From NCBI GenBank assembly GCA_020624805.1, contig JAHKVW010000029.1:1-64000 (forward strand): a stretch of DNA of 64,000 bases, in the 5' to 3' direction. The notes beneath the pieces are model-generated. The model made no database searches and had not been told where the DNA came from. It was given only the letters and a program-made list of their open reading frames with translations. Positions within the stretch are counted from its first letter, which is position 1. Each line of letters starts with the position of its first letter. The DNA comes from a bacterium (GTDB lineage: Bacteria > Bacillota > Clostridia > Oscillospirales > Acutalibacteraceae). Made by a program: the position numbers and the translations under genes. Below, piece after piece: positions 14,964-62,100 of the stretch.

Positions 14964-15000
14964 AAGCCTTTTCTCCATCGTTGAGAAAAGGCTTATTTTA
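14964..15000 (+). terminator. Intrinsic terminator
   Basis: AAGCCTTTTCTCcatcgttGAGAAAAGGCTTATTTTA. Confidence 0.75.
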
Positions 15001-15120
15001 TTGCGGATTTTTGTAAATTAGGGAATGACAACGCTGATTTTTTGTGTTATAATGAATCAGATTAAGCTGTAAACGGCAGTTCCGCATACAGCTTTGGCAG
15101 TTTTGAGGTGACAAAAAAAG

Positions 15121-16614: not shown

Positions 16615-16662
16615 TCAATGATTTTGATTAAGTAAAAATAGAGTGATGAAAGGAGAATATCA

Positions 16663-17805: not shown

Positions 17806-17818
17806 GTTTGATACAACA

Positions 17819-17849
17819 AAAGGGTTGGCGTTTTGCCAACCCTTTTTTC
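17819..17849 (+). terminator. Intrinsic terminator
   Basis: AGGGTTGGCgttttGCCAACCCTTTTTT. Confidence 0.8.
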
Positions 17850-17853
17850 AATA

Positions 17854-18090
17854 TCAAATCCCGTTATGTCGGTCGACCATCTCCCGCAGCTTTTGCAGCA
17901 GCTCGTCGGTTGAAAGTCCCGCTTTCTCGCTCAGGTCGGCGAGGGTGGCGTTTTTGATCATCATCTTTCCGATCGGCGTGTTCACGATCTTAAAGCGGCT
18001 GTCGAGCTTGATCAGCTCTTCGGGCAGCCACGGATACTCAGCGAGGATATCGGTCAATTTTGTTTTGTCGTTATAGTTCATGTTCTTCAT
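17854..18090 (-). CDS. DUF1858-like protein
   Basis: KTKLTDILAEYPWLPEELIKLDSRFKIVNTPIGKMMIKNATLADLSEKAGLSTDELLQKL. Confidence 0.75.
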   Translation of the reverse strand: MKNMNYNDKTKLTDILAEYPWLPEELIKLDSRFKIVNTPIGKMMIKNATLADLSEKAGLSTDELLQKLREMVDRHNGI

Positions 18091-37863: not shown

Positions 37864-38928
37864 TCAACGTTTTGCGTTGATCTTTTGTTTTTCCTGATAC
37901 AGCAGTTGATCCGCCTGTGTCAGATATTCAAAGAATTCCGTGGGATCTTTCGGACATGCCGTCACGCACCCGAAGCAGCATCCCAGTTTTGAGTCGACAT
38001 CCGAGATCTTGAGCGCTGAAAACCGCTCGTTGACCTGTCTGAGCTTTGCGTTTAATCCGTCGAGGTCGTTGTTTTTCTCGATGATCAGGAACTCGTCACC
38101 GCCGAAACGGAACACGCTGTCGGCGGGGAAGATCTCTACCAGAATATCGGAAAAGCCCTTGAGCACGTCATCGCCCACACGGTGACCGTAGGTGTCGTTG
38201 ACGGCTTTGAAGCTGTTGATATCGCCGATCGCGATACAGATGTCATTGCCGATATAGTCGGGGACATGCTGATTCAGCGCGTAGCGGTTCTGCAATCGCG
38301 TGATGCTGTCGTGGTTGGCGATGATCTCCAGCGAGTCGTTGAGCAGATTTGCCTTGTTCTTCTCTGAGATATAGCCGACGGTCATGCGATAGTTCATGAT
38401 AGCGCCCACGACCGACAGTGCCGCGAACATCAGATAATTATACGGGTTGATCACACCCTCCTCAAATCCGAAATTCAGGATCAGATAGTTGAGGATGTAG
38501 GAGCCGAAGATGACCGTCGTCGTAAAAGCGGGATGGAGCTTGACGAACAGGACGAGGATCAGTCCTATGGTATAGAAGGTGAGGAGCTGTTGGTGATTGA
38601 TATAATTCCATACCGATACATACATGCTCCAGATGATCAGCAGAATGACAAATCCGCCGATAAACACCTTGACGCCCATCGGGTGCTGTTTGACGGTGTC
38701 GGGCCGCTTCATCAGGCTTCCCGCGATAAAGTAACCCAGCAGGCACAGAAAGACGCTCAGGCCGACTCTGATCGCGGCGCCGATGACTTCCGTGTCGGTG
38801 ATTCTGTTGTGGTTTATGATAAAGAATAAGATCAAAGAGATGAGCTGTACAACTCCGACAACGAGCGAAACATAGTGAATGGTTGTAACATTCAGCGAAT
38901 CGATCTCGTTTTTGGTCTCTCTGCTCAT
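37864..38928 (-). CDS. Membrane-bound GGDEF diguanylate cyclase
   Basis: N-terminal TM segments; GDINSFKAVNDTYGHRVGDDVLK...RFGGDEFLII (intact GGDEF). Confidence 0.9.
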   Translation of the reverse strand: MSRETKNEIDSLNVTTIHYVSLVVGVVQLISLILFFIINHNRITDTEVIGAAIRVGLSVFLCLLGYFIAGSLMKRPDTVKQHPMGVKVFIGGFVILLIIWSMYVSVWNYINHQQLLTFYTIGLILVLFVKLHPAFTTTVIFGSYILNYLILNFGFEEGVINPYNYLMFAALSVVGAIMNYRMTVGYISEKNKANLLNDSLEIIANHDSITRLQNRYALNQHVPDYIGNDICIAIGDINSFKAVNDTYGHRVGDDVLKGFSDILVEIFPADSVFRFGGDEFLIIEKNNDLDGLNAKLRQVNERFSALKISDVDSKLGCCFGCVTACPKDPTEFFEYLTQADQLLYQEKQKINAKR

Positions 38929-39124: not shown

Positions 39125-41245
39125 TCACGGCTCCAGATTGAGCTTTGCGATGCGGCGAACCTCATCCTCCGCGTCCAGAAATGCCTTCGCGACAAGAGGA
39201 TCAAAGTGCGATCCCGCGTCCTCGCGGATGATGGAGAGCGCCTTCTCGATGGGGAACGGCTCCTTGTAGCTGCGGCGGGATACCAGCGCGTCAAACACAT
39301 CCGCCACCGCCATGACACGTGCCGAAAGCGGGATCTCTTCGCCCTTGAGACCGGCGGGATATCCCTTGCCGTTCCACTTCTCATGGTGGTAGAGGGCGAG
39401 GTTTTTCGCTTCGGTCAGGTAGCCCGTGTCCTCGTCCACGATCGACATCGCCTTGTCGATGATCTTGCCGCCCTCGACGGTATGGCTCTGCATGATGCGG
39501 AATTCTTCGTCGGTGAGCTTGCCGGGCTTGTTGAGGATCACATCGGATACGGTGATCTTGCCCACATCGTGGAGCGGCGCGGAGTTGACGACCTCCGTGA
39601 TGTATTCTTCGGTCAGCTGATCGCTGTAGATGCCTTCCTTGAGCAGCTGACACAGGATGATTTCAGTATATGCGGCAGTTTTGAAAACATGATCGCCCGT
39701 GCACTGGTCACGGCTCTCGACCATATCGGCGAGCACCATGATCAGCCCGTTTTGGAGCCTGGTGAGCTGTTCGCTCTGATGCTGGAACTCTTCGATGTAG
39801 CGAACGGTATTATGCGCCGCTCTTTTGTAATCCTCATAGAGGGTCTCGATCTCGTCGCCGGTGCGGATATCCAGCGCGTTGAGCATACGGATCCACTTCT
39901 CTCTCGCCTCGGGAGTATCATAGCCCGAGTGACGCGATACATGGGCGATGGCGTTGATCGGCTTGACGATATGGCGCTCCGCCAGCCAGACCGCGTAGGT
40001 GCGGATCAAAAGCAAAAAGCCGAGGAACAGGGAGATGATCTTGGCGAGGAAGGCGATCTCATCGGAGCGCAGACGTCCCATGTCCATATCGATGCCGATA
40101 TAGCACTTCACCTGACCGGCGCTGTTTTTGACGGGTTCATAGACCGAGAGCAGCCATCCGTCCTCATCGATCGAGATGTCGGTGGGGATCTCCTCACCCG
40201 CTAAGAACCGATCCTTGTATTTTTTGATCGAACTATCGTAGCGGATGACCTCGCCGGGATCGTCAGCCTCGACAGTTTCGGAGTCGACGTCAAAGATAAC
40301 ATGGGTACCGTCCTCGCTGATGCGATAGATATAGGCGAACTTGATGTCGGGTGATACGTTGACGATCGTGCTGAGGAGCTCCTCGATGTGGGTGTACCCC
40401 TCCGCTTTTCTGCCCTTCTCCAGATATTCATCGATCCGATCACGATCCAGCTTGTCGGCGATGACATGGATGGCGTGGTGACCGTCCTCTTCAAATTCGG
40501 CGACGGTCGAATCATGATACTGCAAAACGCTGATACCGATCGCTGCCGATACCACCAGGGTAGTGGAGACCGCGACAACAAGCGTTACTTTCCAGCGCAG
40601 GGAAAGCCGCTTGCGGTTATGCGGATTGCGCCGCTCTATCAAGGTGACATAATACCAGCTTCGTGTCTGGACATAGTCAAGAACGCTTGACGGAAGCAGC
40701 TTGTAGATGATCAGCGAGAGCGCGGTGACCAGCGCCTTGTCGGCAAAATCGATCAAAAAGTTCGATGTCATGTTGGACATGAAATAGCCCATCGGGATCA
40801 CGTTGTTGATCTTTTCCGCAAAATCGACGGCAACACCCTCGCCGAAGGTCAGCCCATTGATGAACCATGTCAGAAATCCGCCGACAATACCGCCCCAAAA
40901 CGCGAAGAACACGATCGAGAGCAGGATATACGGTATCTTGAGTCGTCGCAGTTTTTCGGCGAAAGAAACCGCCGTCACCGCGATGAGCACGCTGATGATG
41001 CAGTAATAGATCGAAGAAGGGCTCGAGAAGCCGTTGATGATATTCGTAAAGAAGCCGACGGTGATACAGGGGATGTAACCGCCCGCCATCGCGGACAGGA
41101 TCGTTCCGACATTGTCGAGATAAAACGGAAGCCCCAGTACTTCGTTCAGCTTGATGCCGAGGATGTTCAGCAGGACGCCTATGACGATGACGCCGAAAAG
41201 CGACGCCCCGGTTTGCAGAGTTTTTGATCGCAGTTTCGTTGCCAT
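39125..41245 (-). CDS. HD-GYP phosphodiesterase with membrane sensor region
   Basis: N-terminal ECF-S-like TM block (LGLPFYLDNVGTILSAMAGGYIPCITVGFFTNIINGF), extracytoplasmic segment, HD-GYP (LHDVGKI...YHHEKWNGKGYPAGLKGEEIPL). Confidence 0.9.
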   Translation of the reverse strand: MATKLRSKTLQTGASLFGVIVIGVLLNILGIKLNEVLGLPFYLDNVGTILSAMAGGYIPCITVGFFTNIINGFSSPSSIYYCIISVLIAVTAVSFAEKLRRLKIPYILLSIVFFAFWGGIVGGFLTWFINGLTFGEGVAVDFAEKINNVIPMGYFMSNMTSNFLIDFADKALVTALSLIIYKLLPSSVLDYVQTRSWYYVTLIERRNPHNRKRLSLRWKVTLVVAVSTTLVVSAAIGISVLQYHDSTVAEFEEDGHHAIHVIADKLDRDRIDEYLEKGRKAEGYTHIEELLSTIVNVSPDIKFAYIYRISEDGTHVIFDVDSETVEADDPGEVIRYDSSIKKYKDRFLAGEEIPTDISIDEDGWLLSVYEPVKNSAGQVKCYIGIDMDMGRLRSDEIAFLAKIISLFLGFLLLIRTYAVWLAERHIVKPINAIAHVSRHSGYDTPEAREKWIRMLNALDIRTGDEIETLYEDYKRAAHNTVRYIEEFQHQSEQLTRLQNGLIMVLADMVESRDQCTGDHVFKTAAYTEIILCQLLKEGIYSDQLTEEYITEVVNSAPLHDVGKITVSDVILNKPGKLTDEEFRIMQSHTVEGGKIIDKAMSIVDEDTGYLTEAKNLALYHHEKWNGKGYPAGLKGEEIPLSARVMAVADVFDALVSRRSYKEPFPIEKALSIIREDAGSHFDPLVAKAFLDAEDEVRRIAKLNLEP

Positions 41246-41258: not shown

Positions 41259-41603
41259 TCAGTCGGCGCACAACGCGCCGAGCGTATCTCTCTTTGTCAA
41301 AAGGTCTTGCAGGAGCGGGGTGTAATCCATTTCGGTACGCGCGCGCAGCAGCTCTGTTATCTCGACGGAAACCTGATACATCGGGGTCAGCGAAAGATTG
41401 CCCAAAACGCCCTTGAGCGCGTGAGCCGCCTCAAACGCGCTGTCAAGATCGCCTGCTTGTAACGCGGCTTGCAGCTTATCGAAATTCGCTTCCGCGGGGA
41501 TCATGCCCACCAGCTTAAGATACAGCGCTTCATTGCCGGCGCATCTGCCGAGACCTTCTTCGGTATTTGCTCCGAAATCGTTCAGCTTTTCGATCGTTAA
41601 CAT
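41259..41603 (-). CDS. Hpt-domain phosphotransfer protein
   Basis: AFEAAHALKGVLGNLSLTPMYQVSVEI. Confidence 0.85.
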   Translation of the reverse strand: MLTIEKLNDFGANTEEGLGRCAGNEALYLKLVGMIPAEANFDKLQAALQAGDLDSAFEAAHALKGVLGNLSLTPMYQVSVEITELLRARTEMDYTPLLQDLLTKRDTLGALCAD

Positions 41604-43303
41604 GATGTTTCTTCCTTTCCTTGACATTCCTGATTGATCAATTCGCCGAAGCGCTCAGCGGGCAGCGGCGGCGAAAAATAATAACCCTGTACGATATCAC
41701 AGCCCATTTGCCGCAGCACGTTGAGCTGTTCTTCTTCCTCTACGCCCTCCGCCACGACGGGGACATGAAGGAACCGAGCGATATCCATCACCAGTCTGAC
41801 GAGCCCGAGCTTTTTGTCATCCAACAGCATCCGGCGGATGAACTGCATATCGATCTTCAATACGTCGATCGGGATCTCGGTCAGCATATTCAGTGAGGAA
41901 TAGCCGGCGCCGAAGTCGTCCATCTCGATCTTGAAGCCCTTATCTCTCAGGCTGCCGACCACCTCGATCAGCCGATCCGCGCTGTCGGAATAGGCGGACT
42001 CGGTGATCTCGAGCATCAGCTCATCGGGGGTGAGGGAGAACTCGTCGAGGATATCGCAGAGCTTTTTCTCCAGCTCGGGGTCGAAGATATCGACGCGCGA
42101 CACGTTCACCGAGATCGGGACGGTCACATCGTATTGCTCGCGCCAGCGCTTGATCTGCTGCGCGGCACAGCGCCAGACATAGTGATCCACCCGACGGATC
42201 AGACCGTTCTGTTCAAAGAGCGGGATGAACTCGCCCGGACTGATAAATCCGAGCTCTGGATGGATCCAGCGGATCAGCGCCTCGGCGCTGGTGAGCACGG
42301 GACACTCACCCTGTATTTGATATTTCGGCTGAAAATAGACGAAAAAATCACCGTTGTCGATCGCGGCGTCGACGTCGCCGATCAGCCGTTCATGAAAGAC
42401 CGTGCGTTCATACAGCTCGTTGTTGTAGCGGGTCGTCAAAGAGCCGTATTGACCGCGGATGCGATCGCATGCCAGCTTGGCGCGGCCGAACCACGACTCG
42501 GGCTCGCCCTCATTCCCTTCACAGGAATAGACGCCCGCCCTCAGGCGCAGACTGCGCGATCCGGCAAATTCCGCGAGCTTCTTTTGCATCTCTTCCAACA
42601 GCGGCTCATATTCCTCCTGCCGTTCGCAGAAGATGAAGAAGGTGTCGCTTTCACTGCGGCAGGCGATACCGCGCAGCTGTGTGAGCTTTTCATCGATCAT
42701 CCCGCCGATGCAGGCGAGCACGCGGTCGCCCTCGCCGCGGCCGAACAGCTCGTTGATGAGATGGAAGCGGTCGAGGTTGAGCACCAGCGCGTCCATCGGG
42801 CGATCGAGCCGATGGATCATCCGACGCAGGTACACGAAGAAGAAACTGCGCGTATACAGCCCCGAGACCTTGTCGCGCTCGGTGGAGCGGATGATGCTCT
42901 TGTCCTCGCTCAGCTCGATGATCCTCTCACATCGCGCGAGGATGACCTCGGGCATGTCATAGGGCTTGGTGATGAAATCCGCGGCGCCCATACGGATGCT
43001 GCGAACCTCGGCGGATTTTTCGGACGTCATCACGATGATGGGGATCCGCTTGAGCGCTTCATCCGCCTGACAGCGCTCGATCACCTCAAAGCCGTCCATC
43101 ACGGGCATCAGCAGATCGAGCAGGATCAGCGAATAATCCGCGTCGGGCTGTGTCAGCATCATCATGGCTTCCTGACCGTCGGACGCGGTTGCGATCTCAA
43201 AGGTCTGTGACAGCATCGCGCCGAGCAGTTCCCGGTTGATCAGTTCATCATCGACAATCAGCACGCGGCGTTTGATACCGCTTGCTGTCATATAATTCTT
43301 CAT
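41597..43303 (-). CDS. Response regulator with REC, degenerate GGDEF and EAL domains
   Basis: REC (RVLIVDDELINRELLGAML..LILLDLLMPVMDG..VMTSEKSA); EAL (SAEALIRW, MDDFGAGYSSLN, VAEGVE, QGYYFSPPLP). Confidence 0.92.
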   Translation of the reverse strand: MKNYMTASGIKRRVLIVDDELINRELLGAMLSQTFEIATASDGQEAMMMLTQPDADYSLILLDLLMPVMDGFEVIERCQADEALKRIPIIVMTSEKSAEVRSIRMGAADFITKPYDMPEVILARCERIIELSEDKSIIRSTERDKVSGLYTRSFFFVYLRRMIHRLDRPMDALVLNLDRFHLINELFGRGEGDRVLACIGGMIDEKLTQLRGIACRSESDTFFIFCERQEEYEPLLEEMQKKLAEFAGSRSLRLRAGVYSCEGNEGEPESWFGRAKLACDRIRGQYGSLTTRYNNELYERTVFHERLIGDVDAAIDNGDFFVYFQPKYQIQGECPVLTSAEALIRWIHPELGFISPGEFIPLFEQNGLIRRVDHYVWRCAAQQIKRWREQYDVTVPISVNVSRVDIFDPELEKKLCDILDEFSLTPDELMLEITESAYSDSADRLIEVVGSLRDKGFKIEMDDFGAGYSSLNMLTEIPIDVLKIDMQFIRRMLLDDKKLGLVRLVMDIARFLHVPVVAEGVEEEEQLNVLRQMGCDIVQGYYFSPPLPAERFGELINQECQGKEETSC

Positions 43304-43330: not shown

Positions 43331-46291
43331 TCATTCTGCTTTGATACAATCGGCGAGCGTCGCGATCAGCTCGTCGGGGTTAAAGGGCTTTGCGACGTGG
43401 GCGTTCATTCCCGCGTCAAAAGCCTCTTGTCTGTCATCTTCAAAGGTGTTCGCTGTAACGGCGATGATGGGGATGCGGGCGTTCTCACCCGCCGATTCAC
43501 GGATCCTGCGCGTCGCGTCATAGCCGTTCAACACGGGCATCTGGATATCCATCAGGATCGCGCTGTAATAGCCCGCATCGGACTGTTCGAGCATCTCGGC
43601 GGCGACCTGTCCGTTTTCGGCGACGTCTACGATAAAGCCCTCCTGCGTGAGGATCATGCAGGCGATCTCGCTGTTGATCGGGTTATCCTCCGCCAAAAGG
43701 ATCCGAACGCCGCTGAAATCGATATGTTTCGATTCTGCCTGAGCAATGGGCGCATGGACATCTTCCTCTTTCGCGAGCGGGAAGCGCAATCGCACCGTAA
43801 AGGTCGTGCCCTTACCCTGCTCGGTTTGGACAAAGATCGTACCGTTCATCATCTCGACGAACCTTTTGGTGATCGCCATCCCCAGACCCGTACCCTGGAT
43901 CGCGTTGACGGTTTGACTGCGTTCGCGCTCGAACGAGTCAAAGATATGCTCGGCGAACTCCGGGCTCATGCCGATGCCCGTGTCGCTGACGCTGATCTCA
44001 TAGGTCGTTTCTGTTGCGGTCGTCTCCGGCTCTGTCAGCCTGACGCTGACGCTGCCGCCGGAGGGTGTGTATTTATAGGCGTTGGAGATCAGGTTGAGCA
44101 GGATGCGGTTGAGACGGTTTTTATCACAGACGACATAGCGGTGCTTGACGTCGCTGTGATCCACCGTGTAGGTCAGCGGCTTTGCCTGCATTTGTATATC
44201 AAAGATATGACAGGTCTCGTCGAGGATCTCGGTCAGATCGGCAGGCGCCGGATCCAACTCCATCTTGCCTGATTCGATGCGGCTCATATCGAGGATATCG
44301 TTGATCAGTGAGAGCAGTTGTTTTCCCGAGGTATCGATCTTTTCCAGATAGGAGCGGGTCGATTCGGGCACGCCCTCCTCCTTCAGCGCCAGCGCCGTGT
44401 AGCCGGTGATCGCGTTCATCGGCGTGCGGATATCGTGGCTCATGTTGGAGAGAAAGGCACTCTTGGCGCGGCTGTTTTCTTCCGCAAGAAGCCGTTCGGC
44501 TTCGATGAGCTGTTCCCGCTTTTTGATGATGGAAAAGATGCTGAATATCAGGAGCAGTGATCCGAGCAGCAGACCGCCGAGGATCAGGATATTTTTTCTG
44601 ACGGTCTGGGCAAATCCGTTGAAGCGTTCATCCAGAAATCGGTTCGTCTGTTTGACGCTGTCGTTGTGGGGTTCCAATCCCGCCTGCCCGGCAAGATCGG
44701 TGTGTACCTCCTGCACCTCCTGCGTGACTGCCTTTGCGTGATCGAGGGTGGTGCGGTTCACCCATGATACGGATACCAGCAGGATCAGACAGAACAGGAT
44801 GATCCAGACCACGGTGCTCTTACCGATCAGTCGTGTTTTGTCGCGCCGCATCAGCACGCGGAACAGGATCATACCGATCAGGCTCCACAATATCAGGATC
44901 ATATAGGATTCCGCCGCCAGCTCACTTTGTGACTGGATATGCGGCAGCAGATAGAACACCGCGAAAATCACGGCGATCACGGCGCCGATCACACCGAACA
45001 GGAGCGTGGAGATCTTTTTCTCTCGTTTGCCGATCACAGCGGCGCAAATCGAAACATAGGCGTAGACGACGGTCGCGCCGATGGTGGTGACGTCGACGAT
45101 CCAGCCGATCGCGGTTCTGCCGAAGAACGGGATGATCATGGAGATAATTGCGACAGACCACAGCGCGCGTGAGGGGATCCCCTTTTTGTTGAGCTTTCCC
45201 ACTTGTTTGGGAAGCATTTCGTCGGCGGACATACGATAGATCAGGCGGCTCAGCGCGATCATATTGCCGATCAGACCGGTGAAGATGCCGCAGAAGGAGG
45301 CGACGCCCAAGATGATCAGACCCGCCGTTCCTATGGCGTTTTGCGCGGCGTAGAAGGTCGGCAGACCGCGGATGCCTTCTATGTCGGATAATACACCGAT
45401 GTATTCGCTCCAGCTGTAAAAGCCGTCGGGGGTAGCCGCGGCAGCGCACAGCGTGAGCATGATATACGCGAGCGCGCCGGTGGCGAGCGCCGCGATCAGG
45501 ATCAACAGGACTTTTTTCTGTCGAAAACGAAACTCTTCGGCAGAATGGGAAATCGACTCAAAGCCGATGAATGCCCACGGAGCGAGGAGCACGATCGCCA
45601 TGATCTGGGATACGGGCTCACCCTGTGACGAGAAAGCGGGCGTGATATCGCCGAGCCCTCCGCGTCGGACAGCGATCATGACACAGCACACGGCGATCCC
45701 CGCGAAGAGCAGAATCGCGCAGAGCGTCTGTACAAATGCCGAAAGGCGTTTTCCCGCGACACAGACCAGACACGCGGCGGCGATGATCGCGACGGACAAC
45801 AGCACTTCGCCCATGTAGACGGTGTAGCCCGCGATCTGATAAGAAAAGCCGAAGCAGAATACGTCGCCGAAAAGGAATCGGACGATCAAAGAAAGCGCCG
45901 TGCTGTTCGCCCAGATGATCGCGGCGTAGGTCAACAGCAGCATCCACGCGCACAAAAAGCCGTGGTCGCTTCCGAGTACCTTGGCGGCAAAGGTATAGGA
46001 GCCGCCGGCGTCGGGATACCGCGCCATCAAAACGCGGTAGCTCAGCCCGATGATCAGCATGATCGCCGCGCCGATCAACAGTCCTGTCACGGAGCCCCAC
46101 GGTCCCGCGATGGGCAGGAAGGTGGTGCCGGGCATGACAAAGGCGCCCCATCCGACAGCGCTGCCGAAGGCGAGTGCCCATACCGCGACAGGGGAGAGGT
46201 ATTTGCTCAGCCCGCCGGTATTCTGTTGTGTGTCCTGAATACGAATCATGGTATGCTCCATCAAATTATGGTTACGGATGGATCCCTCCAT
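43331..46291 (-). CDS. Amino-acid permease (APC)-like domain fused to a hybrid histidine kinase (HisKA-HATPase-REC)
   Basis: About 450 aa APC-like (GSAVGWGAFVMPGTTFLPIAGPWG, YPDAGGSYTFAAKVLGS, PWAFIGFESISHSAEEF); H-box SNMSHDIRTPMNA; HATPase DTGIGMS, GTGLGMAI; REC LLAEDNPINSEI..LMDIQMPVLNG. Confidence 0.92.
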   Translation of the reverse strand: MEGSIRNHNLMEHTMIRIQDTQQNTGGLSKYLSPVAVWALAFGSAVGWGAFVMPGTTFLPIAGPWGSVTGLLIGAAIMLIIGLSYRVLMARYPDAGGSYTFAAKVLGSDHGFLCAWMLLLTYAAIIWANSTALSLIVRFLFGDVFCFGFSYQIAGYTVYMGEVLLSVAIIAAACLVCVAGKRLSAFVQTLCAILLFAGIAVCCVMIAVRRGGLGDITPAFSSQGEPVSQIMAIVLLAPWAFIGFESISHSAEEFRFRQKKVLLILIAALATGALAYIMLTLCAAAATPDGFYSWSEYIGVLSDIEGIRGLPTFYAAQNAIGTAGLIILGVASFCGIFTGLIGNMIALSRLIYRMSADEMLPKQVGKLNKKGIPSRALWSVAIISMIIPFFGRTAIGWIVDVTTIGATVVYAYVSICAAVIGKREKKISTLLFGVIGAVIAVIFAVFYLLPHIQSQSELAAESYMILILWSLIGMILFRVLMRRDKTRLIGKSTVVWIILFCLILLVSVSWVNRTTLDHAKAVTQEVQEVHTDLAGQAGLEPHNDSVKQTNRFLDERFNGFAQTVRKNILILGGLLLGSLLLIFSIFSIIKKREQLIEAERLLAEENSRAKSAFLSNMSHDIRTPMNAITGYTALALKEEGVPESTRSYLEKIDTSGKQLLSLINDILDMSRIESGKMELDPAPADLTEILDETCHIFDIQMQAKPLTYTVDHSDVKHRYVVCDKNRLNRILLNLISNAYKYTPSGGSVSVRLTEPETTATETTYEISVSDTGIGMSPEFAEHIFDSFERERSQTVNAIQGTGLGMAITKRFVEMMNGTIFVQTEQGKGTTFTVRLRFPLAKEEDVHAPIAQAESKHIDFSGVRILLAEDNPINSEIACMILTQEGFIVDVAENGQVAAEMLEQSDAGYYSAILMDIQMPVLNGYDATRRIRESAGENARIPIIAVTANTFEDDRQEAFDAGMNAHVAKPFNPDELIATLADCIKAE

Positions 46292-46305: not shown

Positions 46306-49134
46306 TTATAAATCAGCGTCGATGAGCTCCATCAGCGTATGGTGAAGCTGATCGGGCTCGACGGGTTTTGACAGATGAGCGTTCATGCCCGCCTGCAAGG
46401 ATCGCTGTACATCCTCATCAAACGCGTTTGCCGTCAGCGCGATGATCGGGACGCTTTTGGCGTCCTCGCGGGGCAGCGCACGGATCGCGGCGGCGGTCTC
46501 CAGACCGTCCATGACCGGCATGCGCACATCCATCAGCACCGCGTCATAGTAATGCGGCTCGCTGTCGCTGAACAGCCTGAGCGCGATCTGTCCGTTTTCG
46601 GCGTGGTCGGTCGCCATGCCCTTGATGGACAGCAGCTCCTTGATGATCTCGGCGTTGATCGGCAGATCTTCGGCGAGAAGGATCCTTCTGCCTGCCAGCT
46701 CAACGCGGCTCTTCGCCGCCTTGACGGGCAGGTGCATGACGCGTTCGATCTCACGGCTGACTACCACGGGGAACTCCGACTTCGGGATAAAGCCGTCGAC
46801 TCCCGCCGCGATCGCCTCATCCATGACGTCGACGCTGTCATAGGCGGTCAGCGCGATCACGCGGGTCTCGTTGCTGTATCGTCGGCGGATCTCACGCGTG
46901 ACGTCCGCGCCGCCGCGATAGGGCATCCGCCAATCCACCAGCACAAGGTTATAGGGCTCCTGTTTCGCGTGATGGATCTCGATCGCCGAGATCGCCTCAT
47001 CCGCCGAGGATACGGCGTCCGCCGAAACGCCGATGTCATCGAGAACGATGCCGGCGTGTTCCAGCGCGATCGGATCGTCATCCACGACCAGCGCTTTGAT
47101 CGCCGAGTAGTCGAACGCCTTGGTATTGCGTTTGCCGTTTTCACAGTTTTTGAGCGTAACGGTCACTGTGAAGGTCGAGCCTTCACCCTTCTTCGACGTG
47201 ACGTCGATGGTGCCGTTCATCATTTCTACGATGCTTTTGGTGATCGCCATCCCCAGTCCCGTACTGCCGTATTTGTTCCTGCGGCTGGCGTCCTCTTGCG
47301 TAAAGGGGTCAAAGAGCTTCGGCAGATAGTCCCTGTCCATTCCGATACCGGTATCGCGCACGGTAAAGCGGAGCGTTGTCTGGCGGTCAAAGCAGGCGAT
47401 CTGATCGACCGTAAAGGTCACATTTCCCGGCGCGTCGGTGAATTTGATCGCGTTGCTCAGGATATTGATGATGACCTGTTTGAGCTTGGTATCGTCGCCG
47501 AAGTACCAGTCGTCGACCGCGCCGTTGATATGACATTCAAAGCTCAGGCCCTTGTCGTCGCACTGGGATTGGACGATGGTGTTGATCTGTTCCAGCATTT
47601 CCGCCAGATTGAATTCTTCTTTATGGAGCGTCAATCTGCCCGATTCGATGCGGCTCATATCGAGGATATCGTTGATCAGGTTGAGCAGATGACCCGCGCT
47701 TTCGCCGATCTTGAGCAGATAATCCTTTGTCTTTTCGCTGAGGGTCGGATCCTTCAGCGCGATGCTGTTGAGCCCGATGATCGCGTTCATCGGGGTGCGG
47801 ATCTCGTGACTCATGCTGGACAAAAAGGCGGTTTTGGCGACATTGGCGTGCTCCGCTTCTTTCAGCGCGAGCGCCAAAATGTCGTTCTGCTCACGCTCAT
47901 GTCGGAGCACGTCGGTCACGTCGGACTTGAGCAGCAGGAAAAAGCGCGTTTCTCTGTCGATGACATAGTAGGTGAACCGTTTGTAATAGGTCGCGCCGTC
48001 GATCTCACAAGTCACGTTGATGGTATAGGACTCGTTGTCCTCCAGATTCTCCGCGATGGTGTCGATCGAAAGCGCCTCTTCCAGCGCCGCGATATCGTGC
48101 ATGCTCTCAGACGCCGCGGGCAACACCTGATCGTGGATATAGTCGGCATATAAGCCGCTGTGGTGCTTGGGAAAGATACTGCCTTTCCCTATCTTGGAAG
48201 CGTCGCCGATCACGACGCTGTAGTTGTTGTCGACGATATAGGTGACCATATCGTACTGCTGTGCGAGAACCTTCTCGTTGAGTACCTCGGCGACCTTCTC
48301 GTTGTTGTATTCGCTCTCCGTGCCGAAGAGGATCAGATCGCCGCTCGTGGGCGCATGGGCGACCGAACGTGTAAAGTGTACAAAGCACTGCCGCCCCGAT
48401 TGCCGACGGCAATAGGCGACAAAGGTCGCGGGCGGAGCGCCCTTATAAAAGCGATCCATCAGCTGCTCGATACGGAAGCATTCTTCATATTTCTCTCTGT
48501 CGCCGTCGACGAGCAGACTCTCCCGACGAACCCGTTCCGCGTCCTCAAACAGTACGCCTGCCCGATCTGTTTGGTAGAGATCGACGCCGTGTGCTTCTTC
48601 GATCAGTCCTGTGGTCAGGTTACTGCGAAAAACGGTCAGGCTGGTATCGGCGGCAGAGTGGAGCTGTTCGAGCATCGAGTTGTAGACGCCCGCGCGGCGG
48701 TAGCTTTCTTCCTTGGCGAGATACTGCTCGGTGATATCGCTGATGAACACATAGAACACATCACCGTAACCGGGGAACTGGGCGAAATGGCCGTAGTCGT
48801 CGACCCATCGGATACTGCCGTCCTTGCGGATGATGCGGTACTCCACGTGATCGCGGTTTGCCGCCTTTTGATCGTGGATCTGCTCCTCAATCGACTGATC
48901 GATCGACTCATAGTCGTCGGGATGCACCATACCCTTGAAGGTGTATCCGGTCAGCTCGCGAAACTCTTCATCCGTGTCGCAGCCGTACATGATCCGCACG
49001 GCGCTGTTGACATACAAAAGCTCCATCTCCGCGTCGGCGCGGTAGATGAAAAATCCTCCGGGGATCTGTTCTCCGATCCACTCGATCGCAGAGGTCATAT
49101 ATCCGCTTTGAAACAGTTCGTTCGGTGTCGACAT
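46306..49134 (-). CDS. PAS-containing hybrid sensor histidine kinase with two receiver domains
   Basis: PAS (RIIRKDGSIRWVDDYG), H-box SSMSHEIRTPMNA, HATPase, REC1 LVVDDDPIAL..LVDWRMPYRGG, REC2 LLAEDLPINAEI..LMDVRMPVMDG. Confidence 0.92.
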   Translation of the reverse strand: MSTPNELFQSGYMTSAIEWIGEQIPGGFFIYRADAEMELLYVNSAVRIMYGCDTDEEFRELTGYTFKGMVHPDDYESIDQSIEEQIHDQKAANRDHVEYRIIRKDGSIRWVDDYGHFAQFPGYGDVFYVFISDITEQYLAKEESYRRAGVYNSMLEQLHSAADTSLTVFRSNLTTGLIEEAHGVDLYQTDRAGVLFEDAERVRRESLLVDGDREKYEECFRIEQLMDRFYKGAPPATFVAYCRRQSGRQCFVHFTRSVAHAPTSGDLILFGTESEYNNEKVAEVLNEKVLAQQYDMVTYIVDNNYSVVIGDASKIGKGSIFPKHHSGLYADYIHDQVLPAASESMHDIAALEEALSIDTIAENLEDNESYTINVTCEIDGATYYKRFTYYVIDRETRFFLLLKSDVTDVLRHEREQNDILALALKEAEHANVAKTAFLSSMSHEIRTPMNAIIGLNSIALKDPTLSEKTKDYLLKIGESAGHLLNLINDILDMSRIESGRLTLHKEEFNLAEMLEQINTIVQSQCDDKGLSFECHINGAVDDWYFGDDTKLKQVIINILSNAIKFTDAPGNVTFTVDQIACFDRQTTLRFTVRDTGIGMDRDYLPKLFDPFTQEDASRRNKYGSTGLGMAITKSIVEMMNGTIDVTSKKGEGSTFTVTVTLKNCENGKRNTKAFDYSAIKALVVDDDPIALEHAGIVLDDIGVSADAVSSADEAISAIEIHHAKQEPYNLVLVDWRMPYRGGADVTREIRRRYSNETRVIALTAYDSVDVMDEAIAAGVDGFIPKSEFPVVVSREIERVMHLPVKAAKSRVELAGRRILLAEDLPINAEIIKELLSIKGMATDHAENGQIALRLFSDSEPHYYDAVLMDVRMPVMDGLETAAAIRALPREDAKSVPIIALTANAFDEDVQRSLQAGMNAHLSKPVEPDQLHHTLMELIDADL

Positions 49135-49460
49135 AGGCTCTCTCCGTTCCGTAGGCAACACCGCAAGAAATCTTGCGTGTTTGCCTTAACATCTTAACCA
49201 ATTTATTATAAACTATCACCACAAAAAATACAACAATTATACGAAAAAAAGGTGGCTTTTTCCGACTGTCTGTGCACTCCGAAGCGTACAACGGCGCCGT
49301 GAGGAAAAAAATACCGTTTTATCTTGTGTAGATTTCATAAAATCTGCCATATAATTATATGACTAATTCCGATTTTATGGCTGCCATATTGAAAAAATTG
49401 CCGAAAAATACTATGATTAGTTTGAATTCCCGGCGATTTGTTAAAGGAAAGGTAACGGTC

Positions 49461-52028
49461 ATGGACACTGGTTTTTTCGATCTGCTGAAGCATGTCAGAC
49501 AGCCCGAAACAATCGTGCGATTTCTCGACAATTCATCCTATGATGAGCTGCTCGAGATCAATGTGAAGCAACAGACTTTCAAGAGTGTTTTTCACGTTTC
49601 AAAAAAATATGCCATGCCGCTGACGAAGGGCAGTTACAGAGAGGTTTTCATCGGTATGTCCGAGGAACTGATCCATCCCGCTGAGCGCGAAAGATTTATC
49701 GAGCTGATGAATCCGGAAACGATCCTCTACCGTCTGTCCGATTCCGAGCTCCCGGGATTGTGCTGTGAAGAATACCGTTTTCGGCTGATCGTCGGAAACT
49801 GGCATTGGGTGGAAATGGTGCTGATCGCGGGAGAGGAGTACGGACTGGAACCCAATGTCGTCCGTATGTATATCTTTGACTGTCAAAGCCGAAAGATCCG
49901 CGAGCTGGGTCTGACCGACACAGCGGTATATGCCGACAACAACCGCAACGAGATGACCGGACTGCTGAAGAAGCGCGCCTTTGTCAAGGACGTACAGCAG
50001 CGTATCAAGAACACCGATACGGAATGGTGTCTGGTCAGTATCGATATCGATAATTTCAAGCTCTTCAACGAGTGGTACGGTCACAGCGAGGGCGACCTGT
50101 TGATGATACAGATCGGCGCGACGCTGCTCGAAGCCGGCGAGCGTACCGGCGGCTCGGCGGGCTATTTCGGACAGGATGATTTCTGTCTGCTGATCCCCTA
50201 CGACATGGAGCTGATCGGTCATATCTATGAGGATATCTCTGCATTGATCGGCTCGCGCGGCAACAGCTCGAGCTTTTTGCCCGCGTTCGGCATTTGTATC
50301 GTCAAGAGAGAGTACGAGCTGATGGATATGCTCGACCGTGCGCTGTTGGCGGCACAGGTCGCGAAGGAAGGCTACCACAGCCGCATCCGTATATTTGAAA
50401 AAGGGATGTATTCGCGCACCAACGCGGAGTATCGCGTGCTGACGGATTTTTCACGGGCGCTCAAACAGCATGAGATCGTCTTTTATCTGCAGCCGCAGTG
50501 CCGCGCGTCATCGGGAAAGATCGTCGGCGCCGAGGCGCTGGCGCGCTGGATCAAGCCCGACGGCACGGTCATCCCGCCCGACACGTTTATTCCCGTGCTC
50601 GAGAAGCGCGGACTCATTTCCGATCTGGATCTGTATATCTGGGATGACGTCTGCCGCTGGCAGCATGAGTGGATCAAGAGCGGTCACACGCCGCTTCCCG
50701 TTTCGGTGAATGTATCGGTCTCCGATATCCTGCACACCGATCTTCCCGCTATCTTTGAAAACCTGATCAAAAAATATGAATTGGAGCGCAACCTGCTCAA
50801 GATCGAGATCACCGAATCCTCCTATATCACCAACACGGCGCTCGTCATGGAGACTGTCCGTTCGTTAAGGGAAAAAGGCTTTACGGTATTGATGGACGAT
50901 TTCGGCAGCGGCAGCTCCACGCTGAACATGCTCAAAAACCTGAATATCGACGTCATCAAGCTCGACGCGCAGTTTTTGAACATGAATGAAAGCAACGAAG
51001 AAAAGAGCATCCGGATCCTGGAATCGGTCACTAACCTGACCAAGACGATCGGCGTGCCGATCATTGTCGAGGGCGTTGAGACCAAGGAGCAAAAGGACTT
51101 TTTGATCGATATGGGTTGCCGCTATATCCAAGGGTATTATTTCTTCCGCCCGATGCCGATCACGGATTTTGAGAGCCTGATCGACGATCCCGACAAGATC
51201 GATACCTCGGGTATCTCGTTTAAGGCGAACCAGCAGTTCCGTCTGCGCGAACTGCTCGATAACAACATCTACAGCGATACCATGCTCAACAGCATCCTCG
51301 GTCCGTGCGCGCTGTACTCGTGGCACGGCGACGACGTGGATATCGTGCGATACAACGAACAGTTCTATGAGGCGGTCGACGTACCCGATTTTTCGGAACG
51401 GCTGGTCTGCATCCAGCGCTTTCTGCCTAAGGCGGATATTCCGCGCATGACCGAGCTGCTGCGGCTGGCGCAGCGCGATCGGCTGAACGGCTCCAAGGGT
51501 CTTTTGCATTTCTACAAGACCGACGGAACGCTGACCACCTTCGACATGCACTTCTACTATCTGCACAGCGAGGGTGAGGAGAAGATCTTCTACGGCTCCG
51601 TGCGCAATATCACCAAGCTGAGTAACCTTGAAAAGCAAATGACGCTGCTCTCTCATATCTCGACAGATACGGTGCTCTTTTTGTCCCGCACCTCCGAGGG
51701 TGATATTCGCTTTACCGTGCTGTTCAACGGGCTTGAGAACATTATCGGCATCAGCGCGCATGAGTTGGAAACCGAGTTGAACGGTGAGAACTTTATCGAC
51801 AGGATCGGTTCCGAAAACGACCTGTCCGTCTATAAAGAGGTTTTGGAACACATCCAAAAAACCGAACCGTTCTCGACGACGGTGAGTATGAGAAACGCCA
51901 ACGGAGATCGCGTGACGCTGAACGCGGTCGGCAACTACATCCCCGACGAGACCAACACGATGGATTACATCATCATCCTGAGCAAACCGACGGAGGAAGA
52001 GCAGCCGGTCAGTTCGCCGGAATCTTAA
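49461..52028 (+). CDS. Degenerate-GGDEF/EAL protein with C-terminal PAS-like region
   Basis: FGQDDF in place of GGDEF; EAL GAEALARW, MDDFGSGSSTLN, VEGVET, QGYYFFRPMP; start placed at the SD-preceded MDTGFFDLL. Confidence 0.88.
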   Translation: MDTGFFDLLKHVRQPETIVRFLDNSSYDELLEINVKQQTFKSVFHVSKKYAMPLTKGSYREVFIGMSEELIHPAERERFIELMNPETILYRLSDSELPGLCCEEYRFRLIVGNWHWVEMVLIAGEEYGLEPNVVRMYIFDCQSRKIRELGLTDTAVYADNNRNEMTGLLKKRAFVKDVQQRIKNTDTEWCLVSIDIDNFKLFNEWYGHSEGDLLMIQIGATLLEAGERTGGSAGYFGQDDFCLLIPYDMELIGHIYEDISALIGSRGNSSSFLPAFGICIVKREYELMDMLDRALLAAQVAKEGYHSRIRIFEKGMYSRTNAEYRVLTDFSRALKQHEIVFYLQPQCRASSGKIVGAEALARWIKPDGTVIPPDTFIPVLEKRGLISDLDLYIWDDVCRWQHEWIKSGHTPLPVSVNVSVSDILHTDLPAIFENLIKKYELERNLLKIEITESSYITNTALVMETVRSLREKGFTVLMDDFGSGSSTLNMLKNLNIDVIKLDAQFLNMNESNEEKSIRILESVTNLTKTIGVPIIVEGVETKEQKDFLIDMGCRYIQGYYFFRPMPITDFESLIDDPDKIDTSGISFKANQQFRLRELLDNNIYSDTMLNSILGPCALYSWHGDDVDIVRYNEQFYEAVDVPDFSERLVCIQRFLPKADIPRMTELLRLAQRDRLNGSKGLLHFYKTDGTLTTFDMHFYYLHSEGEEKIFYGSVRNITKLSNLEKQMTLLSHISTDTVLFLSRTSEGDIRFTVLFNGLENIIGISAHELETELNGENFIDRIGSENDLSVYKEVLEHIQKTEPFSTTVSMRNANGDRVTLNAVGNYIPDETNTMDYIIILSKPTEEEQPVSSPES

Positions 52029-52112: not shown

Positions 52113-56472
<4,360 letters not shown>

Positions 56473-56476
<4 letters not shown>

Positions 56477-57885
56477 TGTTCAAACTCCTTACGCTTGATC
56501 TTGCCCCATGTTTTACGGAGCTTTCGGTATTTGATGATACCTTCCACACGGAAGATGGTGATGATCTGTCGGTAGCCGAAGTTCTCGAGGATCGCGTATA
56601 CGGAGATCGCGATACTCTGCTTGGCAGTCATCGCGGCGCGGTGGGTATACTGCTCCAGCACGAGGCTGCCCTCGGAGAGGATGACGCCCAAGGATACCGA
56701 TAACAGGAAATAGATGACGAAGAAGAACATATTCAACTCGCCCATGATCAGTGTGAACGGTATCAGGAAATAACCGATCGTCTCGACCAGCGCGCCGAAC
56801 AACTCAAAGATCCAGTTGTAGGGCATCGATACCAGTCCGACAAAGCCGTAGCGCGGGTTGAAGGTCATGCTCGCGTGCGAGATCAGCGTATCCATCAGAC
56901 CGATCTGCCAGCGGCGGCGCTGGCTGCGGATGTCGTTGAGCGACATCGGGCCCTGTGTCCAGCAAACCGAAAATTCGTTGAATTTGACCTTATATTTTCT
57001 GCGATGCTTGCGCATATAGTGGTGGATACGGACGACGATCTCCATATCCTCGCCAATGGTGTTCTTCTTGTAGCCGCCCACCTCGATAACGGTCTGCTTT
57101 CTGAACAATCCGAAAGCGCCCGATACGATGAGCAGAGAGTTGGACGCCGCCCAAAAGACACGTCCCATCAAAAAGGAACGATAGTACTCGACGATCTGGA
57201 AACGCTCGATGAGCTTTTTGGGCATCGTAAAGCCCTTGAGCTCGCCGTCGACGATCTTGGAGCCGTTCGCGATACGCACGATACCGCCCGCGACGACGGT
57301 GCGGGAATCCTTGATGAACTCCATCGACAGGCGCAGCAGCGCGTCCTTCTCGATACGGGAGTCAGCGTCCAGACAGGTGAACAGCGGATATTTCGAGATA
57401 TTGATGCCGGCGTTCAGCGCGTCGGACTTACCGCCGTTTGCCTTTTGTACATACAAAAGGTTGGGGTAGGTCTTGCTGTAATAGACCGCCTCGATCTTCT
57501 GGGTCGGGATCTGGTAGCGGATCGAGGTCTCGATCTTGTGCATATGAAAGGCTTCGATGACCTTATCGCCCGTTTTGTCCGTCGAGCCGTCGTTCACGAC
57601 GATGATCTCAAAATGCGGATAATTCAGCTTCATCAGCGAGCGGACGTTCTGCACGATATGCTCCTGCTCGTTGAACGCGGGGATGATCAGCGAGATGGGC
57701 AGGAGATTTTCGCTGTCCTCATAGCTGAGATAATCATCGGAAAAGGTCTTGTTATAGTTGCGGTTTACGCGGAAAAAAGACACAAACAGCTGGACGATGT
57801 ATATTAAGTTGAGCAACAGCGTAAAAGCCATGCAGAAGTAATTGAAAAAAACGATAAAGTGGCGTATCGCATTCAAAAATCCCAC
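56473..57885 (-). CDS. Processive family 2 glycosyltransferase (membrane polysaccharide synthase type)
   Basis: IVVNDGSTDKTGD, TCLDADSRIE, TIGEDMEIVVRIH, QRRRWQIG; flanking TM segments; no PilZ tail visible. Confidence 0.9.
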
Positions 57886-57974
57886 AGTCTGTTCCTCCTA
57901 ATCAGATACTTTGCGTTAACGGATCGTCAATAGGCGTGCCTAAACGATCATAAAAAGCTTGTGTAGATAAAAGA

Positions 57975-59045
57975 TCACGTGTCGACCGTCTTATACAGGA
58001 CGTTCTTCATCGCGTCGGCGGCAAAACGGTCGTATCCGCCTAAGATCTCTTCCAGATCCTTGGGCGAGATATCCATGCGGGTGATCGACTGAGCCGCCGT
58101 CTGGCGCACCCACCATTCCTTGTCGCCCAGCGCGTGCTTGACGGTATTGAGCGCGCTTTGCGTCTTTAAGAGCGACAGTCCTCTGACTGCCGAGGAACGG
58201 ATCACCCAGTCCTTATCGCCCGCGGCGATCTGCAGGATCTGCTCATCCTCAGGATAGCCGAACGCGGCAAGCGCCTTGACGCAGGCGATTTTCAGCTGGG
58301 TGTCGTTGCCCGACGCGCCCTCGATATACATGGTTCTGAAGCCGTCGATCTTGTACTGCGCGATCGTCTTGATGACCGTACACTTCATGTACTTGTTGCA
58401 TTTTTCAAAGAGCTTAGCCGCGAGCTCCTCTCTGTCGCCGGTGAACTGGGCAAAGAACTCGTTGACGATCCTGCCCGAATACTGGGTATCGTTCTCGATG
58501 CTCAGCAGGTACTCGGCGACCTCATAGACGTCGCCCATCTGACACAGCGCCATCGCGGCGTTATAAGCCAGATCTCTGTCCTTGCTGCCGACACATTCCT
58601 TGATCTTATCGCGATACTCCATCGCCTCCAGATCGGCAAGCCTTCTGCAGGCATAGCCCTTATGGTAGACGTCGCCCTCGTCGAGCATCTTGGCGTACAT
58701 CGCGACAGGATCGACCTGCGTGTTGATGCGCTCGATCAGCTTCTCTTTTGCTTCATCATCAAAGCCGGAGCCCTGATGATCTTTGATTTCCTTGACAGCC
58801 ATCTCATAAACGGTGAAATCTCCGTTTATCTCGTCGGCCAATGCGGTTATCTCGGCGTTACGGCTGCCCTCGGTGGGTGCATAGAGCACCCCTTCCACGT
58901 GGATATCAAGCCTGCGCCTGATGTTATCGTTGCGGGCTGTATGCTCATCCTGCAGTTCAGCCAAACGATAAAGAAGAATGTACTCTATGCCGATGATCAG
59001 CAGGCACAGCAGTAACCCGATAACGCTTAACAGTTCGATCTTCAA
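57975..59045 (-). CDS. Membrane-anchored HEAT-repeat protein
   Basis: N-terminal TM; tandem helical repeats (LKIACVKALAAFGYPEDEQILQIAAGDKDWVIRSSAVRGLSLLKTQSALNTVKHALGDKEWWVRQTAAQSITRM). Confidence 0.82.
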   Translation of the reverse strand: MKIELLSVIGLLLCLLIIGIEYILLYRLAELQDEHTARNDNIRRRLDIHVEGVLYAPTEGSRNAEITALADEINGDFTVYEMAVKEIKDHQGSGFDDEAKEKLIERINTQVDPVAMYAKMLDEGDVYHKGYACRRLADLEAMEYRDKIKECVGSKDRDLAYNAAMALCQMGDVYEVAEYLLSIENDTQYSGRIVNEFFAQFTGDREELAAKLFEKCNKYMKCTVIKTIAQYKIDGFRTMYIEGASGNDTQLKIACVKALAAFGYPEDEQILQIAAGDKDWVIRSSAVRGLSLLKTQSALNTVKHALGDKEWWVRQTAAQSITRMDISPKDLEEILGGYDRFAADAMKNVLYKTVDT

Positions 59046-59128
59046 GCGATTATCTCCTGATTGTCGGCCTCCCCGTCAGCCGTACTATTACGGCTGACGG
59101 GAGGTGGGGCTTTTCTCAAGCCCCTTGT

Positions 59129-62100
59129 TTATTGTCCCGAAAAATATTGTTTGAGTATATCAAAGCTCTCCTTGTGGCGGGAGGTGTATTTGACGGTCTC
59201 CCATTTGCTCCACTGGAATACTTTGTATCCGGGGTCGTGCTTATCCATGGGGAAGGCATACATGACGTCGCCCTCCTTGCGCTCGCCGATCATGACGGAG
59301 ATCAGCGCGCCGTTGGTAGTAACGGTCTTGGCGGTATCTCCCTTGAACGAGTCGTCGTTGATCACGAGCTTTTTGGACGGATCGGCGACGTTGAGCCATG
59401 TCCACGGCAGGCGGATATAGATGGTCGAGCCGGTCTGGTAGAACTGGGTATCACCCGAGGTAAAGCCGCCGTAGCTCAGATCCGCCACCTTGTTGTAGTC
59501 GCCGGTGTAGCTTTCTTCCGTATATGCTCTGTCTTTGCTGCGGTCATAGGTATCGATAACGTACAGCGCGGCGTTTTGCTTGCCCTCAAAGCGGAGAGAA
59601 TACTCCATACCGGAGAGGGAGTTCGCCGTGAAGTCGTCGGCGTAGTAATACTCGCCGTCGTTGCGCTGGAAGGTATCCAGACCGATGAACATGGCGTTAT
59701 CTTTGTAATCGATCTCCTGCAACAGCTGCAGGGTGATATACAGATATCCCGCGTCGCTGTACATAGAGACCGCCTGCGCCATGTCGTCGTCGGAGAGGAC
59801 CAGACCGGGCGTTTCCGGCATCACGCTGTCCATGGCGATCAGACCGGACATCTGTTTGCTGTCACAGGTGTTGTGCCACAGATAGCTGTCGGAAACGGAG
59901 GTATAGAATTCCATATCCTCGCTGACCTCGCTCCAGCTGTCGTTCAGGTCATATACGGTCGCGCCTAAGATACCGCTGTCCTTTGCGGCCTTCAGCGCCG
60001 AGGTGATCCGCTCGCCCTGCTGTGTTTCGGTGACAGCGTCCTGATCGTAAACAGCGTTTACGTCCGAGAACGATACACCCGACGCAAGTACAGGCGAGGT
60101 GACCTTTTTGAGCTCATTGAAAGCACTCATATACTTTGATTCTATGGTGTCGGAATTCTTGCCGCCGCCGGCGATCTTATCGTTATCAAGATCGATATCA
60201 CAGAAGTAATATTCCTTGCAGTCGGCAGAGACGATGTCGTTGAAGACATACGCGTTTTTATCTTTTACGCCCGACATGCCCTTGATCATATTATAAGAAC
60301 CGCAGACGGAGATGGGCGTATAGTAATCATAATCGTCGTAGGAGACCTTTTGAGCGGTATCGTACAGATACGCCGCAAAGCCCTCGACACCCTTGCTGTC
60401 CTTGACATATTCGCCGCTGTAGGAGTAGTCGGAAAGTCCGGCTATCGCCGCGACGTTCTTTGAGGTCAGCGCGGGATCGATGCTCACGCCCAGTACATAC
60501 TCCGATACATCGATAAAGTAGGTAGCCGCGCCGAGCTTTTCACTCTGCGCGTGACCGTTGCCGTGGAGGGCGTTGATCGACGTCGTGACGGCGTCCTTCC
60601 ATTTTTCCAGACCGTCGGATTTCAGATAATCCTCGGCGCTGAGCTCATCGGGGACGTTGACGCGCTGGAGGATGTAGATCGTGCCGTTCTCCGGATTCTT
60701 GTTATAGCGGCTGACTGCCGCGTAGAATTCCGGCGGCAGAAGATCCTTTGCCACAAGACAGTTGATTCCCATCTCACCGGCGGATTTGATCAGATCCTCA
60801 TAGAAGGTGAAATCGCGCGAATAGGTCGCCTTGCCGGGCTCCTGCGCGTTCAAAGCGGCTGCCTTGAGCGTCATGCCGCGCCATTTTTCGTCCTCGAGTA
60901 TCTGGAAGCTGCCGTTATTGACGCGAGCGACCTCCGCGTGATTCTCCTTCTCCTCCACATACTGCTTGCTCTTGGTATCGGACAGGATATGGCGGATCAG
61001 CGGATTATAGAACCGCCAGTAAAAGTTGGAGATATCGCCCTGTCTGTCATAGGACAGGAATTTGAAAAACTGATTGGAAAACAGGAAATCGCCGTAGCGG
61101 TCGCCGTTGACATAGTCGTTGCAGTCGCCCGCGAAGTAGTAGACGGGCGCGTAGCCCTCCTCCTGATTACGGGAGACCGCGCAGAAGCGCGGCGTTTTGC
61201 TGATCTCACTGATCTTTTCCATACCGGTGGCGTTGAGGTCAAAATCAAAGGTCGCTATCGTCTCGACGCCGTAGTTCGGTTCGACCAGCTCGAACCAGTT
61301 GTAGAAGTTGCATTTATCACAGCCGGAGAATTCCTTGCGGTATTCTTCGTTGATATAGATCCTAAGAAGATCCTTGGATAAGAAATCCGTGTTTTGTTCC
61401 AGAATGATGATCTTGCCGTCGGACGATACCAGCAGGATACCGGGGCCGGTAAAGCGCCATTCGACGCCTTCCTGCTGCTCATACATCGGAGGCGCCCAGT
61501 CGGGAACGTCGGTAAAGTCCTCCAGATCGACGATATATCTGCCGATCCACTTGGTCGGATTGACGCCGGTGAGCGCGATCAGCTGAGCGCGTACCGAGTC
61601 GGACAGCGGGGAGCTGAAGAAGGTGCTTTCCGTGATGATCGGCGCGCCGCTCTCATGCGCAAAGGAGATGTACGACATATCGTCTTCCGAGATACCGCCG
61701 TTGAGCGGAGAACCGCCGTTATAATGGCCGAAGGTATCGTTGCCCAGCCCGTAGGCATCGGACAGATACAGCAGATCGGGCGTAGACTCCGCGTCCTTGA
61801 GCTCGACGTTGTGGTCGAAGTTGCCCTCTTCATCGAGCATCGGGCCGAAGTAATCCTTTTTATAATCGTAGAACTGTCCCTCGGGATTGACATACCGCTG
61901 CTGATGCAGGATCCAGTAAAAGCCCTGATGCTTACGGTAGACGGTATGCTTGATGATGTTTTCGTCATCCGCGTAGGCGAGCACGGTTTTGTCCAGTACC
62001 GCGACATTCATCACTTTTTTGGGGATCAGATGCCATATGCCGAACAGCAGGATGAGGAACAGGACGATGACGGCAGCCACGATGTGGTACCATTTGAATC

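Follow-up and report, generated by a model that had tools for sequence, protein, structure and literature searches.

A putative membrane receptor kinase with an APC-family permease as its input domain, encoded in a run of c-di-GMP signalling genes of a Clostridia genome

The stretch of DNA analysed here, called the window below, comprises 64,000 nucleotides of a contig from a member of the Acutalibacteraceae. Positions 43331-46291 are filled exactly by a minus-strand open reading frame of 986 codons without interruption; a plus-strand reading of the same interval was ruled out by its eight stops. This gene stands second in a run of minus-strand signalling genes with the order PAS-HK-REC-REC, APC-HK-REC, REC-GGDEF-EAL, HPt, S-component-like HD-GYP and then membrane GGDEF. 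The genes of the run, and the parts of the central one, are as follows.

46306..49161, minus strand: PAS-HisKA-HATPase-REC-REC hybrid kinase, 951 aa, the upstream neighbour (Pfam)
43331..46291, minus strand: APC-permease / hybrid histidine kinase ORF, 986 codons, likely translated from the ATG at 46249 (972 aa)
44843..46198, minus strand: its 12-TM APC permease domain, residues 32-483 (Pfam AA_permease_2, hydropathy, AlphaFold model, Foldseek match to AdiC/GkApcT)
44480..44836, minus strand: its coupling unit, TM13, an extracytoplasmic hairpin of ~55 aa and TM14, residues 486-604 (hydropathy, model)
44267..44467, minus strand: its HisKA/DHp domain, residues 609-675, with phospho-acceptor His619 at 44435-44437
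43781..44125, minus strand: its HATPase_c domain, residues 723-837, with invariant N, G1 and G2 box residues (Pfam)
43355..43702, minus strand: its receiver domain, residues 864-979, with invariant Asp915 (43547-43549) and Lys968
41597..43303, minus strand: REC-GGDEF-EAL response regulator, 568 aa (Pfam)
41259..41627, minus strand: HPt phosphotransfer protein, 122 aa (Pfam Hpt, 2e-10), overlapping the end of the REC-GGDEF-EAL gene
39125..41245, minus strand: protein with an S-component-like membrane domain and HD-GYP, 706 aa, the downstream neighbour (Pfam)
37864..38928, minus strand: membrane GGDEF protein, 354 aa, with an intact GGDEF motif, ~200 bp further downstream (Pfam)

An earlier sequence-only reading of this DNA had given the interval of the central gene exactly, and is to be amended as to the strand, which is minus, and the start. 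The ORF probably begins 14 codons too early, with translation starting at the ATG at 46249, because GGAG lies six bases before that codon and several close homologues begin there. That reading had further described a single 986-aa frame in which an APC-type permease is joined to HisKA, HATPase and REC, and the ORF check and Pfam agree with it. AA_permease_2 (PF13520) matches residues 32-447 with an E value of 2.9e-32 (112.6 bits against a cut-off of 27), HisKA residues 609-675 (2.8e-21), HATPase_c residues 723-837 (7.6e-29) and Response_reg residues 864-979 (5.9e-25); all four score far over their cut-offs, and the AA_permease model matches as well. The catalytic residues of a hybrid kinase, H619, N733/N737, D770/G772/G774, G800/G802/G804, D915 and K968, are invariant in 40 homologues.

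Hydropathy yields TM segments that fit a 12-TM APC permease, with one predicted window in a re-entrant or split region, then an Arg/Lys-rich cytoplasmic loop (RRDKTRLIGKS) that separates the permease from TM13 (~493-511), a loop of ~55 residues and TM14 (~568-586). The twelve segments of the permease had been recognised from the sequence, but only a single further segment had been expected between permease and kinase, where hydropathy and AlphaFold both give two and the intervening loop. The AlphaFold model, a monomer built from 40 homologues (mean pLDDT 82.5, pTM 0.61) in which the relative placement of the domains is uncertain, has the APC fold, a long TM13 helix (494-536) and a helix (544-637) that is continuous from TM14 into the first DHp helix. 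Best Foldseek matches of the permease part are AdiC (TM-score by target length 0.81-0.82) and GkApcT (0.76-0.78), and ShkA, GacS and HK853 are among the best for the kinase part. The same plan, again with the APC fold by Foldseek, appears in the model of an APC-GGDEF relative in L058 (pLDDT 84.9), whose TM13 spans 475-516 and whose unbroken TM14-linker helix (520-584) runs into GGDEF. TM13 and TM14 follow the permease in 89 of 89 fused members; the loop between them has mostly 45-60 residues, and 12-32 in some kinase fusions.

The window comes from a fragmented genome of 139 contigs, so that one might suspect an assembly or frameshift artefact that fused two genes, and an assembly error near 44.5-44.7 kb had been named beforehand as the place to look. 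This explanation is refuted because full-length homologues exist: frames without interruption, at 40-86% identity, are found in many independent genomes and assemblies. In addition, dN/dS against the two closest orthologues (Nei-Gojobori) is 0.16-0.17 for the whole ORF, below 0.3 in all four segments, and 0.05-0.09 across the TM13-loop-TM14 junction, values that indicate purifying selection along the entire length of the gene, the junction included. The ORF is genuine, and we regard the probability of an artefact as negligible. A same-genome match with an "856 aa open frame" proved to be an ordinary 469-aa permease and not another fusion.

The kinase is present in 12 of 60 genomes of the same genus, and a match within a frame of fusion length occurs in 7 of 391 genomes drawn evenly from the class. 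Of the 80 loci that a scan of GTDB genomes yielded, the majority encode an APC-type fusion protein; they come for the most part from MAGs of the rumen and gut, assigned to Clostridia, Selenomonadales, Erysipelotrichaceae, Coriobacteriales and Treponema. In these relatives the 14-TM unit, that is, the 12-TM APC permease with its two-TM hairpin, is also joined to outputs other than kinases: to GGDEF in 22 proteins, every one of which keeps the GGDEF motif intact, to GGDEF-REC-GGDEF-EAL in 12, and to HD-GYP in L057. Kinases with two RECs follow it in L041 and L066, the latter with an added PAS. APC fusions also stand in tandem, two each in L025 and L039 and three in L041, where the trio (7956-18052, plus strand) carries HK-REC-REC, GGDEF-REC-GGDEF-EAL and a partial GGDEF lacking the motif. 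The earlier claim that an APC-type permease, rather than an SSS one, is fused to the kinase stands, but the protein is no isolated oddity; it belongs to a large family, modular and associated with the gut, that has several types of output. Tandem pairs of APC-kinase fusions of 810-838 aa were also seen in another Bacillota family (L131, 396-6601, and L132, 4507-10519, both minus strand); they match HATPase_c without a HisKA or REC match in Pfam and adjoin a CheB-type methylesterase, and their output is perhaps chemotaxis-like.

In a maximum-likelihood tree of 105 permease domains, fused and sampled stand-alone, the fused permeases form one group apart from the stand-alone ones (SH-aLRT 99), with one change between fused and alone, and ten changes of output type are needed within it. 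The tree indicates common descent of the 14-TM module across the fused proteins, and a single clade with about ten output changes suits a portable sensor. L046, the apparent exception, is actually a kinase fusion that its contig carries in interrupted form. Sequences from Actinomycetota and Spirochaetota are interspersed with those of Bacillota, which could reflect transfer between gut bacteria, a reading that MAG binning and paralogy make unsure.

The sequence-only reading had placed the kinase in a c-di-GMP phosphorelay. This is borne out, and the relay is more complete than was claimed, since the HPt gene, which had been overlooked, supplies the missing step: the window encodes together all the parts of a His-Asp-His-Asp relay, namely the hybrid kinase, an HPt and a c-di-GMP enzyme with a receiver. 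The REC-GGDEF-EAL protein is most likely a phosphodiesterase that degrades c-di-GMP, because its GGDEF motif is degenerate (SESDTF) and its EAL motif intact (EALIR). A close orthologue of this regulator occurs in 13 of the 60 congeners, including 12 of the 12 that have the kinase (hypergeometric p ~9e-12, where such co-occurrence values ignore shared ancestry and are inflated by it), and HPt is found in 11 of those 12. In G824 the two genes are unlinked and both kept, the kinase on C9 (70-73 kb of a 117-kb contig) and the regulator on C22 (39-41 kb of a 51-kb contig). HPt homologues were found at 15 retrieved fusion loci, distant lineages included. The phosphorelay partner is not universal among APC kinases: within the stretch retrieved around each of 46 APC-kinase loci, HPt is present at 12 and a REC-GGDEF(-EAL) gene at 11, which leaves 34-35 of the 46 without one or the other. 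The PAS-HK-REC-REC kinase recurs upstream of fusions at 11 of 77 loci; it is no strict partner, as in several congeners that have the APC kinase it finds only partial matches elsewhere, or none that reach the threshold.

Other genes of the window touch on the same subject. The membrane domain of the HD-GYP protein (39125-41245, minus strand) matches an ECF S-component model (CD3073 family, E 2.9e-10) and is a second transporter-fold sensor within the same gene run. Divergent to the phosphorelay genes and adjoining them, 49359-52028 (plus strand) encodes a GGDEF-EAL-PAS protein of 889 aa, by Pfam a further c-di-GMP enzyme. The region 52113-62221 (minus strand), which adjoins the c-di-GMP genes, holds genes for a Family 2 glycosyltransferase (57885-56473) and a HEAT-repeat protein, and three large ORFs that match nothing in Pfam; the region may be an exopolysaccharide locus on which the signal acts. 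Two FeoB ferrous-iron transporters lie elsewhere in the window (5009-7351, minus strand, and 22061-24550, plus strand), one with an N-terminal FeoA domain.

Within the fused group, positions of the TM1/TM6 hinge region (G43, G47, W48 and G49; P238, W239 and G243) are invariant, as are N129 and E162, and most invariant core positions are common to the stand-alone relatives. A permease core conserved in this way points to a functional input domain and not to a remnant. Five positions, D109, E245, Y297, P311 and F313, are near-fixed in the fused proteins and mostly different in the stand-alone ones; E245, for example, is Asp in 14 of 15 stand-alone permeases. Three of the five belong to the TM7-TM8 stretch, the part of LeuT-fold transporters that contains the extracellular lid EL4. 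They would fit an altered gating cycle, though this interpretation was made after the fact and from few positions.

The 72 operonic neighbours of the fused loci belong mostly to unrelated housekeeping families and give no hint of the ligand, and NCBIfam models for BcaP and other permeases match far below their cut-offs. Stand-alone relatives adjoin genes for sulfoacetaldehyde acetyltransferase, an omega-aminotransferase-like protein, alanine dehydrogenase, methylmalonate-semialdehyde dehydrogenase and lysine 5,6-aminomutase; these neighbours hint at amines, omega/beta-amino acids, taurine or lysine, in permeases too distant (31-39% identity) for an assignment. At L127 (4756-11706, plus strand) two tandem stand-alone sister permeases lie between a sulfoacetaldehyde acetyltransferase gene (Xsc, above the NCBIfam cut-off) and an aminotransferase gene, and are candidate taurine-pathway permeases.

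We lean towards the view that the protein is a membrane receptor kinase with an APC-family permease as its input, controlling c-di-GMP through the phosphorelay. The TM1/TM6 pocket would hold a small solute, which is probably an amine or amino acid, and the motion of the LeuT-fold core would pass to the TM13-hairpin-TM14 unit and, along the TM14 helix that is predicted to continue unbroken into the DHp helix, alter the autophosphorylation of His619. Phosphate would then move from His619 to Asp915 of the protein's own REC, to the HPt histidine and to the REC of the REC-GGDEF-EAL protein, and the phosphorylated regulator would set the EAL phosphodiesterase and hence the level of c-di-GMP; in the relatives, the same 14-TM module may drive GGDEF, GGDEF-REC-GGDEF-EAL or HD-GYP outputs directly. 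The architecture, the intact catalytic motifs, the conservation, the common descent of the module and the association with c-di-GMP genes can be read from the sequences themselves. Ligand binding, dimerisation, the sign of the response and the order of phosphotransfer are steps that we infer.

The readings that compete with this one differ in what they ask of the permease. It might be a true transceptor that still transports, so that flux through the transport cycle and not mere occupancy sets the state of the kinase, as has been proposed for CbrA. That CbrA transports histidine (PMC7096432) speaks for it, as does the finding that conservation at the TM1/TM6 motifs and most core positions equals that in the stand-alone relatives; the five positions that set the fused clade apart, three of them in the TM7-TM8 lid region, and the loss of transport in the related case Ks-Amt5 (PMC5764959) point the other way, neither decisively, and we hold a transceptor to be possible though rather unlikely. 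Coupling might also run in reverse, the state of the phosphorelay gating the permease and the fusion being a regulated transporter, since either direction is physically possible in a fusion. The module has, however, been swapped among kinase, GGDEF and HD-GYP outputs that share only the need for a helical, probably dimeric input, which favours a role as sensor over one in regulated transport, and the kinase and cyclase active sites are intact; a regulated transporter is thus improbable.

Little more can be said for a permease that has lost ligand binding and only places or dimerises the kinase, with the signal entering through the TM13-TM14 hairpin or elsewhere. One subgroup does have a very short TM13-TM14 loop, and the variation in loop length implies that details of coupling differ, but neither the strong conservation of the pocket motifs across 89 diverse members nor a dN/dS of 0.15-0.23 for the APC domain (two closest orthologues) is expected of an anchor, and we give a passive role a correspondingly small chance. 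Returning to the receptor kinase, a wider and more tentative proposal is that it belongs to a dedicated superfamily of gut-bacterial receptors, largely retired from transport, in which the APC permease with its TM13-TM14 coupling hairpin may be plugged into histidine kinases, diguanylate cyclases, cyclase-phosphodiesterases and HD-GYP enzymes alike, to sense amino acids or amines that come from the diet or the host.

Few bacterial receptors built from secondary transporters are known (the SLC5-STAC kinases, an Amt kinase and the S-component-fold receptors). Across gut bacteria of at least three phyla, an APC permease seems to have been adopted as an interchangeable sensor. This suggests that a little-known kind of nutrient receptor governs c-di-GMP, and that c-di-GMP signalling in Clostridia of the rumen and gut responds to nutrients. 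With one fused clade and its stand-alone sister permeases, the change from transporter to receptor becomes directly testable, as does the way in which alternating-access motion reaches a kinase or cyclase, and the APC-GGDEF relatives offer a one-protein readout. In the open-access literature we found no description of an APC or amino-acid permease fused to a kinase or to a GGDEF/diguanylate cyclase, where absence is no proof, as subscription papers, TCDB and InterPro architecture lists were outside its scope.

The nearest in kind are the SLC5-STAC sensor kinases CbrA, CrbS and RpuS (PMC7096432, PMC13022988, PMC5715377, PMC9100948) and the ammonium sensor kinase Ks-Amt5, and the protein belongs to neither. 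Like the former, it carries a LeuT-fold secondary transporter N-terminal to a histidine kinase in one chain, with nutrient sensing proposed, and like CrbS it is a hybrid kinase. Their transporter, however, is of the SSS/SLC5 family and is followed by a cytoplasmic STAC domain, whereas ours is APC (AA_permease_2) and is followed by the TM13-hairpin-TM14 unit; in our case the kinase is predicted to feed a c-di-GMP relay, and the module is coupled to outputs other than kinases as well. Membership of the CbrA type was ruled out by the lack of SSF in Pfam and of STAC: residues 478-605, a TM hairpin, gave no STAC match even at E 10. Pfam likewise finds no Amt domain in the protein, which separates it from the Ks-Amt5 type. 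Both recruit a transporter fold as sensor and fuse it to a kinase without HAMP, PAS or STAC, but the fold of Ks-Amt5 is the trimeric Amt, whereas ours is APC and carries an additional TM hairpin, and our protein would be expected to dimerise in the manner of a kinase. The S-component-fold (5TMR) receptors (PMC11109136) resemble the module in offering a transporter fold as portable input for kinase, GGDEF, EAL and other outputs, though theirs is the unrelated, small ECF S-component fold and not a 12-TM APC permease. AdiC, GkApcT and CAT1/CAT4 (PDB 5j4i, 6f34/5oqt, 9uat, 9sqh) share both fold and sequence family with our input domain, but stand alone, without signalling domains or the TM13-TM14 coupling hairpin. 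Sensors made from transporter folds are already known; what is new here is the transporter family, the coupling unit and the several outputs.
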